Made by a program: the position numbers and the translations under genes
The notes under the pieces: generated by a model
Database searches by the model: none
Told to the model about the DNA's origin: nothing
The model's input: the letters and a program-made list of their open reading frames with translations, nothing else
Source: Leptospirillum ferrooxidans C2-3
GTDB taxonomy: Bacteria; Nitrospirota; Leptospirillia; Leptospirillales; Leptospirillaceae
Assembly: GCF_000284315.1 (NCBI RefSeq)
Contig: NC_017094.1
Location: 2,139,486-2,203,485 of the forward strand
Direction: 5' to 3'
Length of the DNA stretch: 64,000 nt
In this document: positions 28,975-48,079 of the stretch, piece by piece
Numbering within the stretch: the stretch's first letter is position 1
How the letters are laid out: each line of letters opens with the position of its first letter

Positions 28975-29529
28975 CTATTTTGAAGAGTCTCCGGAAGAGA
29001 GCTTCCCATTCGCCTTGCTGACGTCCTTCTGAAAGGTCTGTGTTGCGTCGCCCAATGCTTTCACGTAAGCATCAACAGCTTTTTTGACCTCTTTTTGCCG
29101 CTCACGAAAGTCGCTCGATATCGTCTTGGCGTAGTTGGCGACAGCAGCCTTGATGGAAGTCGTTACCTGCTCACCCATCGACCCGCCAGTTTCAGCAAGC
29201 TTGTTCTTGATATCATTGATGGTCCCGGTCACATGGCGGCTTGCCACGGCTGTCTTCCTCGCGTACAGTGCATCCGCTTTCCTCTTGTTTTCGAGGTAAG
29301 CTTTTCTGGCATTGGCAACCGCCTGATGGTACCTTGCCTCAGCCCGGGCAATGGCGCTGTCGTATCGATCATTCAAGGGCCGGCTTTCATCATTGTCGCT
29401 TTGTGCCAAAGCGACTTCAGGAGAAAGTCCTAAACCGGACGGGTATCCGGAAACCTGAGACAGAAAAATGGCCAATCCGAATCCGAATGCTGCTCCAAGC
29501 CGTCTTTTTGAATCCAAGAAAGACCTCAT
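28975..29529 (-). CDS. Secreted coiled-coil protein, unrecognised
   Basis: A 184-residue product with a signal peptide (LGAAFGFGLAIFLSQVSGYP; cleavage probably after ALA, about residue 43). The rest is almost entirely charged helix, rich in Ala, Lys, Asp and Glu (YDSAIARAEARYHQAVANAR, DFRERQKEVKKAVDAYVKAL), predicted as a long coiled coil. Acid-tolerant bacteria often carry such small periplasmic helical proteins, but no function can be read. ATG 29529 follows GGGGGAA. The start further upstream at 29604 would lie in the inverted-repeat region and is rejected. Confidence 0.75.
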   Translation of the reverse strand: MRSFLDSKRRLGAAFGFGLAIFLSQVSGYPSGLGLSPEVALAQSDNDESRPLNDRYDSAIARAEARYHQAVANARKAYLENKRKADALYARKTAVASRHVTGTINDIKNKLAETGGSMGEQVTTSIKAAVANYAKTISSDFRERQKEVKKAVDAYVKALGDATQTFQKDVSKANGKLSSGDSSK

Positions 29530-29571
29530 TGATTCCCCCTTTTTGAAGAGTAAAAAATCAAAGAACGCAAT

Positions 29572-29629
29572 AATCCCGGGAACCATCATAGCATGGTTGC
29601 CCAATCGAATGAATTTGCCTCCCGGGATT
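29572..29629. repeat. Nested inverted repeat between ubiA and the coiled-coil gene
   Basis: Outer arms AATCCCGGG (29572-29580) and CCCGGGATT (29621-29629) are perfect. Inside, AACCAT (29581-29586) and ATGGTT (29593-29598) form a second hairpin abutting the first arm. It begins 3 bases after the ubiA stop. On the minus strand it is followed by ATTGCGTTCTTTGATTTTTTA, a loose T-rich run, so it may terminate the quinone operon. A -10-like TATGAT for the next gene lies in the inner loop. Confidence 0.5.
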
Positions 29630-29631
29630 CG

Positions 29632-30525
29632 TTACAGGAGAATGGGTGCCTCCAACAAAAACCCCATCGCCACAATCACTCCAAGAAAAACATGTGACTT
29701 GAACAGCTTCTGGGCATAAACCGGAGTCACTCCTCCCCTCACCTTAAAGGACTGGAAGAAAATCAGCAAGACAAACAGCAAGATGGATAAAGGAAGAGCC
29801 TTGAAGATCCCGAGCGAATAAGACGCCAGAAAAAGGAAAAGACCGGAGAGAAGGCCGAAGAATAAAATGGCGAGCCATAATCGATCACCGAAGGTCACCG
29901 CGCCAGACCGGACTCCCGCCTTGACATCGTCCTCCCTGTCGCTGATGGCATAGATCAGGTCATAGGCGGTCGACCAGAAGAGTCCCGCCAACCCGATAAA
30001 AACTGCTCCCATTGAAAGTTCGTTCTTCGAAGCAGTCCATGCCATGATGGGAGCCACCATTCCAAAAGGAAGTCCCATGAACAGCTGGGGGAGTGGAAAA
30101 AATCTCTTGAAAAGGGGATAGAGGATCGTGGCCAAAAGTCCCACAAACGCCACTTTCAGCGTCAAAAGATTTAAAAACAACAGCAAAAAGGCCGACAGGG
30201 TACAGAAAAAGAAAAATACGGCAAGAGCCCATCCAACCGATATCCTGCCAGAAACAATCGGACGATTTTTTGTCCGTTCAACCGCTCCATCCACATGTCT
30301 GTCCAGGATATCGTTAATAGCACAACCTGCAGATCTCATGAAAAAGGAGCCCAGAAAAAAAATCAGCAGAAGTTTGGGGGGAGGCGCTCCTCGCCATGCG
30401 GCAAGAAGCGCCCAGAACCCGGGAAGAAAGAGCAGGAGTGTTCCGGCAGGGCGATCAAATCGGATCAATTCCAAAATGACGGAAAACCATTTGATCGAAA
30501 ATACGGCCGGAGGATTGGGTGTCAT
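29632..30525 (-). CDS. ubiA: UbiA-family prenyltransferase
   Basis: An integral membrane aromatic prenyltransferase of 297 residues with eight or nine hydrophobic helices. Both Asp-rich Mg-diphosphate motifs are present: AGCAINDILDRHVDGAVERT followed by KNRPIVSGRI, and YAISDREDDVKAGVRSGAVT. Their spacing fits 4-hydroxybenzoate polyprenyltransferase (UbiA). ubiC directly upstream, overlapping by 4 bases, makes 4-hydroxybenzoate the likely acceptor. It is the last gene of the ubiE-radical SAM-ubiC-ubiA unit. The prenyl tail length cannot be read. Confidence 0.9.
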   Translation of the reverse strand: MTPNPPAVFSIKWFSVILELIRFDRPAGTLLLFLPGFWALLAAWRGAPPPKLLLIFFLGSFFMRSAGCAINDILDRHVDGAVERTKNRPIVSGRISVGWALAVFFFFCTLSAFLLLFLNLLTLKVAFVGLLATILYPLFKRFFPLPQLFMGLPFGMVAPIMAWTASKNELSMGAVFIGLAGLFWSTAYDLIYAISDREDDVKAGVRSGAVTFGDRLWLAILFFGLLSGLFLFLASYSLGIFKALPLSILLFVLLIFFQSFKVRGGVTPVYAQKLFKSHVFLGVIVAMGFLLEAPILL

Positions 30526-31025
30526 ACCAGAAATTCCATGAGAGAGGGAAGGAAAATCTCCTGAATGGAGATTCGGGCGCCAGCCATATTTGAGAGGATA
30601 TAAGAACGCATCCAGAGAGGCTGTCCATGCCAGGGATCTGGAGTAATGGGCGTCCCGCTTCGCCTCATGAAAGAGAGATTTTCCCGGATCATGGGCTCAC
30701 CCCTCTCAACAAATGCAGTACCGATCGGACGTGGATCGGAGAGAATTTCCCATGTCCTGGAAAAGTCTCCTCCCGGAGCCATACGGGAAGAAGCCATCAC
30801 GAGCTCCGGATAACGGTTCGTTCCCAGGAATACCCTGCGCTCCCCCTCCTCCCCCGGGATGATCCTCGCAACAACAGGAGCACCAATCGTCAAAGCCAGA
30901 AGTCGCGTCAGGGAACCATCCATCGCCAGAAAAATCTTCAGAAGGATCGGCAGACCATCCAAAAGTGCCGGGATATCAGCACCATCTGGCAAAGGCTGTT
31001 TTCCATCCGCCAGTGGCCGGATCAT
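30522..31025 (-). CDS. ubiC: UbiC-like chorismate lyase
   Basis: A 167-residue protein (E. coli UbiC has 165) with the family's landmarks in order: AMDGSLTRLLALTIGAPVVA (about 34-53), GERRVFLGTNRYPELVMASS with the substrate Arg, LSDPRPIGTAFVERG, and the C-terminal ARISIQEIFLPSL, whose Glu aligns with the catalytic Glu of TELFLP in UbiC. It would convert chorismate to 4-hydroxybenzoate and pyruvate. Overlap with ubiA and one-base overlap with the radical SAM gene imply coupled translation. Confidence 0.84.
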   Translation of the reverse strand: MIRPLADGKQPLPDGADIPALLDGLPILLKIFLAMDGSLTRLLALTIGAPVVARIIPGEEGERRVFLGTNRYPELVMASSRMAPGGDFSRTWEILSDPRPIGTAFVERGEPMIRENLSFMRRSGTPITPDPWHGQPLWMRSYILSNMAGARISIQEIFLPSLMEFLV

Positions 31026-32659
31026 CAGGACAGACTCGGAACCCCCACCGAATGCACTGGAGGGGAAGACGGGGATTGTGGTCGGGAAGATGGGCCCAAT
31101 CTGGCATCGAGCTCTCTCATGACCGCCCTTCCGATCTTCATCGGCTCCTCATCCCAGGCCGCAAGACAGGCTCGGGCAATCAGGGCGCCCAATTTTCCCG
31201 GATTATAAAGAAGCTTTCGAATCGTCATCGGGTTCAGATCGATCGGATCGTAATCCGATGAGAGATAGCCTTCTCGAATCAGCTTTTTCTCGAAGGCAGT
31301 ATGGGGTTGGACCGCCAGAAAAAACACCATCGGGTAGACTCTGTCTTCACCAAAGATCTGGCAGGTTGTCCGGTAAGATTCGATCGCCTCCCGAAGTGTC
31401 TCTTCCGTTTCACCGGGAGCGTTCAGGGAATAATTCAGGATGATATTTCCCTTGTATCCGGCATCCTGCAGATTTCGGCATCCTTCAATAAGGGTTGAAA
31501 GTTTAAAGCCCATGCGAAGACTGTCCAGAATCTCCTGAGATCCTGAGGTGATCGAAACTTCAAGGTCTCCCATTCCGGACTCGACCATCAAGGTGGCAAG
31601 ATCCGGAGAGATGAGACTTGTCCGGATATATCCGCTCCAGGTGATCTTCATCCCGGAGTCCCTGATCGCCTCAAGGAGGGCCCTTGCCTCTGGAATGGCT
31701 TTCACACCGGGAATAAACTGTGCATCGGCAAACCAGAAATTCCGGATTCCCCATTTTTCATAATATTGGCGCATTTCAGAAACAACATCTTCGGGATCCC
31801 GATAAAAAACCCGCTTCCCCTCAATATAGGTATAGAGGCAAAAAGAGCATCCGTAAGGACAGCCCCTTTTTGTCTGGATGCCAATCATTCTCCGATGATA
31901 GAAGGCATGTCCGGGAAAAACCTTTTCGACATAGGCAAGGTCGTAGGGAGCCCGACGGATCTGGACAGATCCTTCCTTTTTTCCCCTTATCGTTTTTCCA
32001 GCCTTTCTGTAAATGACCCGATCATCATCACAGGAACGTCCTTCCACAACCTTGATCAGGGCATCTTCACCCTCCCCAACGACACCGATCACACCCTCAG
32101 GAAGGAGTGGAATGATCTGTTCGGCAAACACGGAAAAAGCGCCCCCACCAACCATGACCGTGGCATTTGGGGCCCGCTTTGCACCCGATCGGATCAGTCG
32201 AAGCTTCCGGTGGAACTCCGTACGATACTTCCAGACCATCCGGATACCATCAATGGCGGCACGAACCCGGGTCGATATCTTTGGGGCATAATAAAACTCG
32301 AACGCCCGACGGAGAGAGTTATCTCCTTCATGGGGAGCGAAAATCTGGACATCTCTCCAGGAATAGGCCAGAAGGTCCGGCTTAAAACGGTCGATGGCGG
32401 CAAAAAGAGCTTCTTGATAGCTGTTCTCAGCAATTTGGGTCATGTCGAGAACTTCCATCTCAACCTCCGGATGCATCCGGTGAAGCCAATTCACCAGATA
32501 GCCTATCCCTACAGGAAAGATCGGACTGACAGGAAGCCAGATGAAAAGCACTCGTTTGAGAACTGCCGGGGGAAGTGGGGCATGATGATCATCCTGGACA
32601 TTCAGATCCAGGACGGGAAGGGCTCCGGACAGAGTTCCGGTCGTATCAGACGGCACCAT
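31025..32659 (-). CDS. B12-binding-domain radical SAM protein in the quinone operon
   Basis: A 544-residue protein. The N-terminal about 240 residues look like a cobalamin-binding Rossmann region (NATVMVGGGAFSVFAEQIIP, IGVVGEGEDALIKVVEG). The radical SAM cluster motif is CPYGCSFC within QTKRGCPYGCSFCLYTYIEG. The TIM-barrel continues with FADAQFIPGVKAIPEARALL and DLEVSITSGSQEILDSLRMG. The start ATG 32659 overlaps ubiE by 14 bases. Members of this class do methylations, cyclisations and oxygen-independent ring chemistry. Its place between ubiE and ubiC suggests a ring modification in quinone synthesis, which is inferred. Confidence 0.85.
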   Translation of the reverse strand: MVPSDTTGTLSGALPVLDLNVQDDHHAPLPPAVLKRVLFIWLPVSPIFPVGIGYLVNWLHRMHPEVEMEVLDMTQIAENSYQEALFAAIDRFKPDLLAYSWRDVQIFAPHEGDNSLRRAFEFYYAPKISTRVRAAIDGIRMVWKYRTEFHRKLRLIRSGAKRAPNATVMVGGGAFSVFAEQIIPLLPEGVIGVVGEGEDALIKVVEGRSCDDDRVIYRKAGKTIRGKKEGSVQIRRAPYDLAYVEKVFPGHAFYHRRMIGIQTKRGCPYGCSFCLYTYIEGKRVFYRDPEDVVSEMRQYYEKWGIRNFWFADAQFIPGVKAIPEARALLEAIRDSGMKITWSGYIRTSLISPDLATLMVESGMGDLEVSITSGSQEILDSLRMGFKLSTLIEGCRNLQDAGYKGNIILNYSLNAPGETEETLREAIESYRTTCQIFGEDRVYPMVFFLAVQPHTAFEKKLIREGYLSSDYDPIDLNPMTIRKLLYNPGKLGALIARACLAAWDEEPMKIGRAVMRELDARLGPSSRPQSPSSPPVHSVGVPSLS

Positions 32660-33392
32660 GGGGTTTTTCTCCGGAATGGATCGCAACGATCCCACCAGAA
32701 AGGTTTCGGTAGGCCACATTGCGAAAACCTGCCGCCTCGATTAACCCTTTGAACCGTTCTTGCGCGGGAAACTTGGCGATCGAGGCAGGCAAATATTCGT
32801 ATATGCCCGTTTTATCCCCGGAGACCACGCGGCCAATCAGGGGCAAAATGGCAAATGAGTAAAATCGATAGAGTTTGTCCCAAATCGGGTTGACGGGTGT
32901 GGAAAATTCAAGACACACAAAACGACCACCCGGCTTTAATATCCGGTAAATATCCTTCAGTGCCACGTCGAGATTCGTCACATTTCTGAGACCAAAGCCA
33001 ACAACAAGCCGATCGACAGATGATGTCCTGATGGCCATGACTTCTGCATTGGACTGAACAGCGCCCATCCCTGACCGTCCCTGTTCGGAACGGATTTTAT
33101 CAAGTCCGATCCTGAGCATCGCAAAGTTCAGGTCAACGGTGGCCACAATCCCTTTCGGTCCAACACGTTCCTTGGCCAGAAGACCAAGGTCAGCGGTACC
33201 ACCACAGAGATCAACCACCGTTTGCCCGGGCTTTGGATCCAGAATCGAGATGGCGATTCTTTTCCATAAGTGGTGCATGCCAAAAGACAGCACGGAGTTG
33301 TTCAGATCATAGGCTTTCGCCGCTGATGTAAACATATTCTGGACGACTATTTGCTTTTCCTGGGGATTAGGCAGGGAGAATGTTTTTGGCAT
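32646..33392 (-). CDS. ubiE: UbiE/MenG-type quinone C-methyltransferase
   Basis: A class I SAM methyltransferase of 248 residues with the UbiE signatures: VQNMFTSAAKAYDLNNSVLS near the N-terminus, the SAM loop VVDLCGGTADLGLLAKE, GFGLRNVTNLDVALKDIYRI and LKPGGRFVCLEFSTPVNPIW. It methylates the quinone ring in menaquinone or ubiquinone-type pathways. The ATG at 33392 has no Shine-Dalgarno; instead a TATAAT ends 6 bases upstream, implying a leaderless transcript. An upstream in-frame TTG (33428) coincides with the -35 and is unlikely. Confidence 0.92.
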   Translation of the reverse strand: MPKTFSLPNPQEKQIVVQNMFTSAAKAYDLNNSVLSFGMHHLWKRIAISILDPKPGQTVVDLCGGTADLGLLAKERVGPKGIVATVDLNFAMLRIGLDKIRSEQGRSGMGAVQSNAEVMAIRTSSVDRLVVGFGLRNVTNLDVALKDIYRILKPGGRFVCLEFSTPVNPIWDKLYRFYSFAILPLIGRVVSGDKTGIYEYLPASIAKFPAQERFKGLIEAAGFRNVAYRNLSGGIVAIHSGEKPHGAV

Positions 33393-33398
33393 GGGCGA

Positions 33399-33428
33399 AT
33401 TATAGCTGAAAAAGGTTGCCCTTCGCAA
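33399..33428 (-). promoter_or_regulatory. Sigma-70 promoter of the ubiE operon, leaderless start
   Basis: On the minus strand TTGCGA (33428-33423), 18 bases, TATAAT (33404-33399), then TCGCCC and the ATG. A start 7 bases past the -10 falls on the A of the initiation codon at 33392. Confidence 0.6.
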
Positions 33429-46790: not shown

Positions 46791-48017
46791 TTAAAAGAAA
46801 CGTCTTCCCGTGCGGAGTGTAGGAATGAATTTTTTGAATGGAAGTCTCAGAAGCTTTACTCCCGCAGCCCGAGAGAATGATCGGTAATCATGAAGTCCGG
46901 TCATGATTTGGGAAAACAGGGTCAATAGCTGGGGATACCTGGAAACAAGCCGGTAATAGATTGCAGGAAATCGGTAAATGACTGCAGAGAGCCTTGATGC
47001 CTGTGCAAAGTCCCTGAATATCTCCTGTTTGACCCATTCGGAATAGGCTGCGCTTGCCTTTTCCGGATGACCATTGACAAAAATGGATTCACAGGCTTTT
47101 GTAGCAGATAGGATTGCGTAGTAGATCCCTTCTCCAAGGAAAGGATCCACTAGTCCGCCTGCGTCTCCAACAAGGAAAAGTCCAGCGATCTCCCCATGTT
47201 CCTTTGCCGATTGCCAGGCAGGAATAATCCAGGTCGAAACCTCCCCATCGGATGGGTCTTCTTTCTCACCGCGAAAGGATTTCAAAAATTCTCTCAATGT
47301 TCTGACCGGTGATCCCAATGGGGTAATCAATCCAGCCACACCGAGAGCTTTTCGGGCGCCGTCCTTGGGAAAAGACCAGGCATACCCCCCCGGGACAGAC
47401 CCGATATCGATCATCACGAACCTGTCATTCACTGGTTCCTCAGCTTTTCCAAGAAGTTCGGATGAGGGCCACCCTGCATTGACTCCCCTCTTTTTACTCC
47501 TTCCACCCGGTATTTTTTGCGATTCTCTCGGGGAACCAAAAAGAAGACGTTTCACCTGACTCGTCACACCATCAGCAGCGAACAGACGTTTTGTCTTTAC
47601 ATTCTGACCATTGATCAATAGCGTAAATCCGATGCCTTCTTCATAAACCAGATCTTCCAGTAAAATTCCGGTCTCCAGGACAACCGATTCCACTTTGGCC
47701 TTTTCATACAGGAAGTGATCGAGCTGATCCCTATGGAATTGATAAGCGATAGGGACACCTGTCTCGACACTTTGAGAGTCTTTGTCCCCCATGGTGACCT
47801 GGACCCCAGTCGTCACAACATGAGGGACCTTTTCCCAACCCGACGGAAGCAAAGCGGTGGCTCTTGCCGATAGCCCCCCGCCGCAAGGTTTCCAGCGGGG
47901 AAAGTGGGAGCGGTCAATCCCCAGCACACTGAATCCCTTTTCTCCGAGGAGACGCGCCGCTGTCGAGCCTGCAGGCCCGAGACCGACTACGACCGCATCA
48001 AATTCCCGACAACTCAC
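46791..48017 (-). CDS. Geranylgeranyl reductase-family flavoprotein
   Basis: A 408-residue FAD enzyme: dinucleotide motif DAVVVGLGPAGSTAARLLGE, then RSHFPRWKPCGGGLSARATA (the PxxKxCGGG of the family), and FLVGDAGGLVDPFLGEGIYY for the FAD ribityl site. Such enzymes reduce isoprenoid double bonds in lipids, quinones or chlorophyll side chains. GTG 48017 is chosen with GGAGG 5 bases upstream. Substrate unknown; polyprenyl lipids or the quinone tail are possible. Confidence 0.87.
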   Translation of the reverse strand: MSCREFDAVVVGLGPAGSTAARLLGEKGFSVLGIDRSHFPRWKPCGGGLSARATALLPSGWEKVPHVVTTGVQVTMGDKDSQSVETGVPIAYQFHRDQLDHFLYEKAKVESVVLETGILLEDLVYEEGIGFTLLINGQNVKTKRLFAADGVTSQVKRLLFGSPRESQKIPGGRSKKRGVNAGWPSSELLGKAEEPVNDRFVMIDIGSVPGGYAWSFPKDGARKALGVAGLITPLGSPVRTLREFLKSFRGEKEDPSDGEVSTWIIPAWQSAKEHGEIAGLFLVGDAGGLVDPFLGEGIYYAILSATKACESIFVNGHPEKASAAYSEWVKQEIFRDFAQASRLSAVIYRFPAIYYRLVSRYPQLLTLFSQIMTGLHDYRSFSRAAGVKLLRLPFKKFIPTLRTGRRFF

Positions 48018-48079
48018 GAGAGCCTCCAATAACCTTCAATGAAGAATGGCCCTCTTCCTGAAACCAGAGCCGCTACTGA

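Follow-up and report, generated by a model that had tools for sequence, protein, structure and literature searches.

The 64,000-nucleotide stretch of the Leptospirillum ferrooxidans C2-3 genome analysed here (hereafter the window) contains, at positions 29632-33428 of the minus strand, an operon of four overlapping genes, mpqE-rSAM-ubiC-ubiA, where rSAM denotes the gene of a cobalamin-binding radical S-adenosylmethionine (SAM) protein. We consider it quite probable that this operon makes the methyl-plastoquinone ring, with the rSAM protein adding the ring methyl or methyls and a B12-free methyltransferase substituting for it when B12 is scarce. The most likely function of the rSAM protein is the C-methylation of the ring of plastoquinone-type precursors. 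In a wider form, which we regard as probable, cyanobacteria and Nitrospirota alike rely on a B12-dependent rSAM methylase to build the plastoquinone-type ring, and a riboswitch-controlled B12-free methyltransferase and a second hydroxylase replace this enzyme under B12 shortage, as MetE does for MetH. Oxygenic photosynthesis uses plastoquinone as its electron carrier; for the bacterial route to plastoquinone, the enzymes methylating the ring are not agreed upon in the literature consulted; the same applies to methyl-plastoquinone in nitrifiers and iron oxidisers.

The rSAM protein comprises, like the cobalamin-dependent (class B) radical SAM enzymes, an N-terminal cobalamin-binding domain (PF02310, 32.4 bits vs a cut-off of 32.1) and a radical SAM domain (PF04055, 60.3 bits, also above its cut-off), and the structures of TsrM, OxsB, and AprD4 align over both domains. 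The CxxxCxxC motif of the 4Fe-4S cluster is located at Cys287/291/294, and these cysteines are invariant in both alignments. The best NCBIfam model is rSAM_slr0320 (NF045585, E 8e-152, 506.3 bits), the model of Slr0320 of Synechocystis, a photosystem II high light acclimation radical SAM protein with the same domain order. The equivalog cut-off of 775 is missed, and the protein is therefore best filed, on its sequence, as a clade related to NF045585 and not as a member. It is 43-45% identical to the cyanobacterial members, and both groups are found with plastoquinone-type pathways; in contrast to Slr0320, the rSAM gene of Nitrospirota adjoins mpqE. The nearest named match is from a Leptospirillum metagenome genome (76% identical).

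The association of rSAM with mpqE was examined in a sample of 198 Nitrospirota genomes, whose counts are non-independent events, using the Slr0320 model for rSAM and NF052510 for MpqE. The Slr0320-model scores are bimodal: every complete ortholog reaches at least 427 bits, the remaining radical SAM proteins do not exceed 92, and no member passes the cut-off of 775. The MpqE scores split at 315 vs 240; the curated NF052510 cut-off is passed in 80 genomes, and members from the same genus as the host of the operon score like its own MpqE. The preliminary description of the operon had asked whether rSAM homologues occur apart from quinone genes: MpqE, found in 97 genomes, is present in all 92 that carry the rSAM ortholog, a count that includes two partial genes (G188 and G054). 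The Fisher p for this co-occurrence is 5e-51, uncorrected for kinship. In 83 genomes the two genes are adjacent and on the same strand, with MpqE upstream and a gap of 10-474 bp. The pair is followed by ubiC and ubiA only in the Leptospirillaceae, apart from ubiA in a single f8 genome, and elsewhere the neighbours vary while the pair is kept. As the gene order is kept in the Leptospirillaceae and, across the phylum, the pairing of mpqE with rSAM, the arrangement of the operon is not due to chance. A role of rSAM in menaquinone synthesis was rejected: MqnC, which belongs to the futalosine route to menaquinone, is encoded in 88 of the genomes, with G007 (6% contamination) the sole case among those with rSAM.

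Three mpqE-bearing Nitrospira are devoid of an intact rSAM gene, each through a different lesion. The gene was replaced in place in G050, leaving a C-terminal remnant of approximately 30 codons, codons ~26-502 are deleted in G148, and in G188 the N-terminus is missing and two or more breaks interrupt the frame. An assembly artefact was rejected for G050 and G148, as the lesions are contig-internal and the remnants are in place. This tally leaves out G029 and G186, where the absence of rSAM is uninformative because mpqE is at the contig edge, as well as the ambiguous case of G184. Exactly these three genomes carry a cassette comprising a flavin adenine dinucleotide (FAD) hydroxylase and a methyltransferase as a divergent gene pair, which occupies the rSAM site itself in G050. 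As for the resident hydroxylase, no other ortholog is found in G050, and the gene in G148 has lost an internal segment. Within Nitrospira, the cassette methyltransferase shows 84-92% identity, compared with 70-80% to cyanobacterial proteins. We take this enzyme to be of the Sll0418 MPBQ/MSBQ type. Sll0418 methylates the plastoquinone and tocopherol ring (review PMC5159609). Such an enzyme would catalyse the reaction that we propose for rSAM, whose place it takes in the three Nitrospira, but it is an ordinary SAM enzyme, B12-free and unrelated in sequence to rSAM. The fact that the relatives that lost rSAM carry a B12-free quinone methyltransferase indicates that rSAM is most likely a C-methylase.

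The genes surrounding the cassette point in the same direction. MetE and the class I ribonucleotide reductase are textbook B12-free stand-ins for B12-dependent enzymes, and the cassette adjoins MetE in G148 and the class I ribonucleotide reductase subunit NrdA in G188, each with its own cobalamin riboswitch. On this basis, the cassette methyltransferase looks like a B12-free stand-in for the B12-dependent rSAM. No riboswitch was found between the cassette genes of G148, and none of the cobalamin type in 16 rSAM control loci (145 kb). Each of the islands beside the quinone cassette, L202 in G148 and L204 in G188, holds two to three cobalamin riboswitches. Besides MetE, L202 encodes CobB, PduO, and a BtuB-like receptor; the reductase encoded in L204 is of the class I NrdA type.

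A similar context is observed on cyanobacterial plasmids. In two cases from Picosynechococcus, a metE-..-methyltransferase-FAD hydroxylase operon is located behind a cobalamin riboswitch; metE with such a riboswitch was already known on these plasmids (PMC7205611). On Nostocales plasmids, the riboswitch is upstream of the methyltransferase in three of four loci; the fourth locus is truncated by the start of its record. The methyltransferase is present in 6/6 plasmid loci and the FAD hydroxylase in 3/6, and no rSAM was found on the plasmids examined. The plasmid hydroxylase was rejected as the origin of the one in the Nitrospira cassette, as their identity is just 23-25%; since the two belong to different FAD groups, the pairing of methyltransferase and hydroxylase arose twice. 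A hydroxylase could possibly be needed in the swap if rSAM works on the ring ahead of hydroxylation and the ordinary methyltransferase on the hydroxylated ring, as the hydroxylase must then accept the unmethylated ring.

With regard to cyanobacteria, the Slr0320 family is above the cut-off in 65 of 156 Cyanobacteriota genomes, photosystem II reaction-centre genes are present in 64, and both in 60. Where photosystem II or rSAM is present, rSAM and the Sll0418-type methyltransferase occur together in 37 genomes, rSAM only in 28, and the methyltransferase only in four; no such genome lacks both. An Slr0320 ortholog is also found in G261, G296, G315, G346, and G354, which show no photosystem II reaction-centre matches; G346 also keeps the Sll0418-type methyltransferase. 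Deletion of slr0320 slows the electron transfer from QA to QB, more so in high light, and the authors, who could not exclude quinone methylation, also proposed a change in small photosystem II subunits (PMC8065906). The latter would fit an rSAM that acts on something else, such as a side chain, a lipid, or a quinone-binding protein, its pairing with mpqE being regulatory. We regard this as quite unlikely, because the mpqE-rSAM pair is kept while its neighbours vary and because rSAM was replaced by an enzyme of the quinol-methyltransferase type, which in G050 is inserted at that very locus.

The AlphaFold2 model of the rSAM protein (mean predicted local distance difference test score of 81) is closest to TsrM (Z 28.7, root mean square deviation 3.0, 425 residues), followed by OxsB (24.9), AprD4 (23.8), MgmA (23.4), and CysS (23.0). 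TsrM is a cobalamin-dependent tryptophan C2-methyltransferase and thus acts on an aromatic carbon (PMC8992657). It shares the B12 domain and the radical SAM barrel with rSAM, but the identity is 20% over the aligned residues and the rSAM substrate would be a prenylated benzenoid instead of tryptophan; this likeness between a model and TsrM does not prove function. CysS methylates repeatedly (PMC12846815), so the addition of two methyls by rSAM is conceivable. Quinone-ring methylation by radical SAM enzymes has a precedent in MenK and MqnK, class C menaquinone methylases, which are in contrast HemN-like and without a B12 domain.

Methyl-plastoquinone has been reported for Nitrospira (PMC12324825), and a review of its pathway names only MpqA-E (PMC13386864). 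The operon resembles this pathway in that homologues of UbiA, UbiC (a weak call), and MpqE are encoded together; it differs in that UbiD (MpqD) is absent from the genome and that rSAM is not among the Mpq proteins named in the literature consulted, nor do the NCBIfam models matching rSAM carry an Mpq name. The high-potential, methyl-plastoquinone-type pathway of Nitrospirota envisaged in the preliminary description, with rSAM in charge of a ring step, is supported. In the proposed mechanism, UbiC would release 4-hydroxybenzoate from chorismate, UbiA would attach the prenyl chain, and the second hydroxyl would come from an FAD hydroxylase encoded outside the operon. UbiE/MenG enzymes methylate beside the prenyl chain; MpqE, predicted to methylate at this same position, should therefore add the extra methyl of methyl-plastoquinone, which would leave the two methyls shared with plastoquinone to rSAM (and to another enzyme if rSAM adds one). 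rSAM may thus add one, possibly both, of these shared methyls, the methyl passing from SAM to cob(I)alamin and then to the aromatic carbon, as in TsrM. Slr0320 would do the same job in cyanobacterial plastoquinone synthesis, and when B12 is scarce the ordinary Sll0418-type methyltransferase, often repressed by B12 through a riboswitch, would replace rSAM. The methylation activity, its ring position and timing, and the production of methyl-plastoquinone by this species are what we infer from these comparisons. If the proposal is true, a B12 methylase fills the ring-methylation step and explains the high-light phenotype of slr0320, and quinone synthesis becomes one of the few core steps that depend on B12, tying B12 supply to photosynthetic and respiratory quinones. 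Quinone structure should then depend on B12 in strains without the B12-free enzyme.

Several observations weigh against this proposal. Ten further Nitrospira hold the methyltransferase alone, with rSAM intact. The assignment of this methyltransferase to the Sll0418 type is our assumption, based on sequence resemblance and on cyanobacterial homology. No riboswitch in sense orientation was found at the chromosomal cyanobacterial methyltransferase loci sampled, and the either/or pattern of the two enzymes in cyanobacteria is not significant by itself (chance of no overlap approximately 0.12, hand-computed). Two ring methyls are due after MpqE and a single candidate enzyme was found. Moreover, in both phyla a hydroxylase comes along with the cassette, which might mean that more than methylation was replaced, and B12-rSAM enzymes can perform other chemistry, as BchE does (PMC13142503).

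The last two points would be accounted for if rSAM hydroxylated the ring without oxygen, in a manner comparable to the cobalamin oxidation of BchE, the FAD hydroxylase of the cassette (present in Nitrospira and in half of the plasmid loci) being its real replacement. In the families f8 and f9, rSAM is present and a search at E 1e-15 revealed no FAD hydroxylase, which is also in line with this possibility. Nevertheless, it appears unlikely: most rSAM genomes own an FAD hydroxylase, all six plasmid loci hold the methyltransferase and not all of them the hydroxylase, the four photosystem II cyanobacteria without rSAM have the methyltransferase, and the nearest fold is that of an aromatic methylase. 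The genome of the operon is no exception, with a UbiH-like FAD hydroxylase at C1:828836-830131, away from the operon. The preliminary description had expected ubiD and flavin hydroxylases to be absent; this is true of the former in this genome and false for the latter.

Decarboxylation by rSAM in species without UbiD is very improbable. It could be suspected from the lack of any match to UbiD (PF01977) in the complete genome of the operon, in the sampled Leptospirillaceae, and in the sampled Nitrospira (f10), as well as from the lack of any match in the 198 Nitrospirota genomes to Coq4, which was rejected as the decarboxylase. However, UbiD is present alongside rSAM in approximately 16 Nitrospirota genomes of other families, and the control genome of S. 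elongatus has UbiD together with the Slr0320 family. Furthermore, G050 and G148 are without both rSAM and UbiD, which indicates that rSAM is not the decarboxylase, and the replacement of a decarboxylase by a methyltransferase would be chemically senseless. C-methylation is thus favoured over the hydroxylation and decarboxylation that the preliminary description had left open beside it. UbiD and Coq4 are absent from Leptospirillum and Nitrospira despite the genes of the 4-hydroxybenzoate route; our leading guess for the decarboxylation step is a decarboxylative hydroxylation by the FAD enzyme. In f9 (L198, L199), ubiC, ubiA, and ubiD are clustered and rSAM is present. At four Nitrospirota ubiD loci (L190, L191, L196, L200), in several methyl-plastoquinone genomes, a gene whose products fall into one cluster adjoins ubiD or separates it from the FAD hydroxylase gene; the product has an FGE-sulfatase/SUMF1-type domain where tested (L200).

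The genome carrying the operon, from the Leptospirillaceae, is complete (2.56 Mb, single contig), and the features of the window are listed in Table 1. The four overlapping genes of the preliminary description are confirmed; position 33392, where it had placed the end of mpqE, corresponds to an internal ATG. The overlaps are 1-4 bp, except for 74 bp between rSAM and mpqE when the longest open reading frame is considered. The conserved core of rSAM begins near residue 55, so its true start is probably internal to this frame. UbiE and UbiA were rightly recognised: the mpqE product matches PF01209 (E 5e-70) and, as best NCBIfam model, MpqE (E 1e-97, 326 bits vs a curated cut-off of 335), and the ubiA product matches PF01040 (E 2e-54) and TIGR01474 (243 bits vs a cut-off of 275). 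The UbiC assignment is weaker, with PF01947 as sole match (19.8 bits vs a gathering cut-off of 22), and is strengthened by relatives, which reach 25.0 bits at L065, above the cut-off, and 46.8 bits in an f31 homologue beside ubiA.

Table 1 Features of the window, with positions counted from its first nucleotide
Feature	Position	Strand	Family matches and remarks
mpqE (ubiE/menG type) methyltransferase	32646..33428	-	NF052510, PF01209; start ATG likely at 33392
Cobalamin-binding radical SAM protein (rSAM), Slr0320-related clade	31025..32719	-	PF04055, PF02310, NF045585
Putative chorismate pyruvate-lyase ubiC/mpqC, Rv2949c type	30522..31025	-	PF01947, below cut-off
ubiA/mpqA 4-hydroxybenzoate polyprenyltransferase	29632..30525	-	PF01040, TIGR01474
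Coiled-coil-like secreted protein, 3' of ubiA	28975-29604	-	Unconvincing
FAD-binding oxidoreductase	46791-48029	-	FAD_binding_3, partial

No riboswitch was found in the Rfam scan of the window. The FAD-binding oxidoreductase encoded further along the window could be a prenyl-chain reductase.

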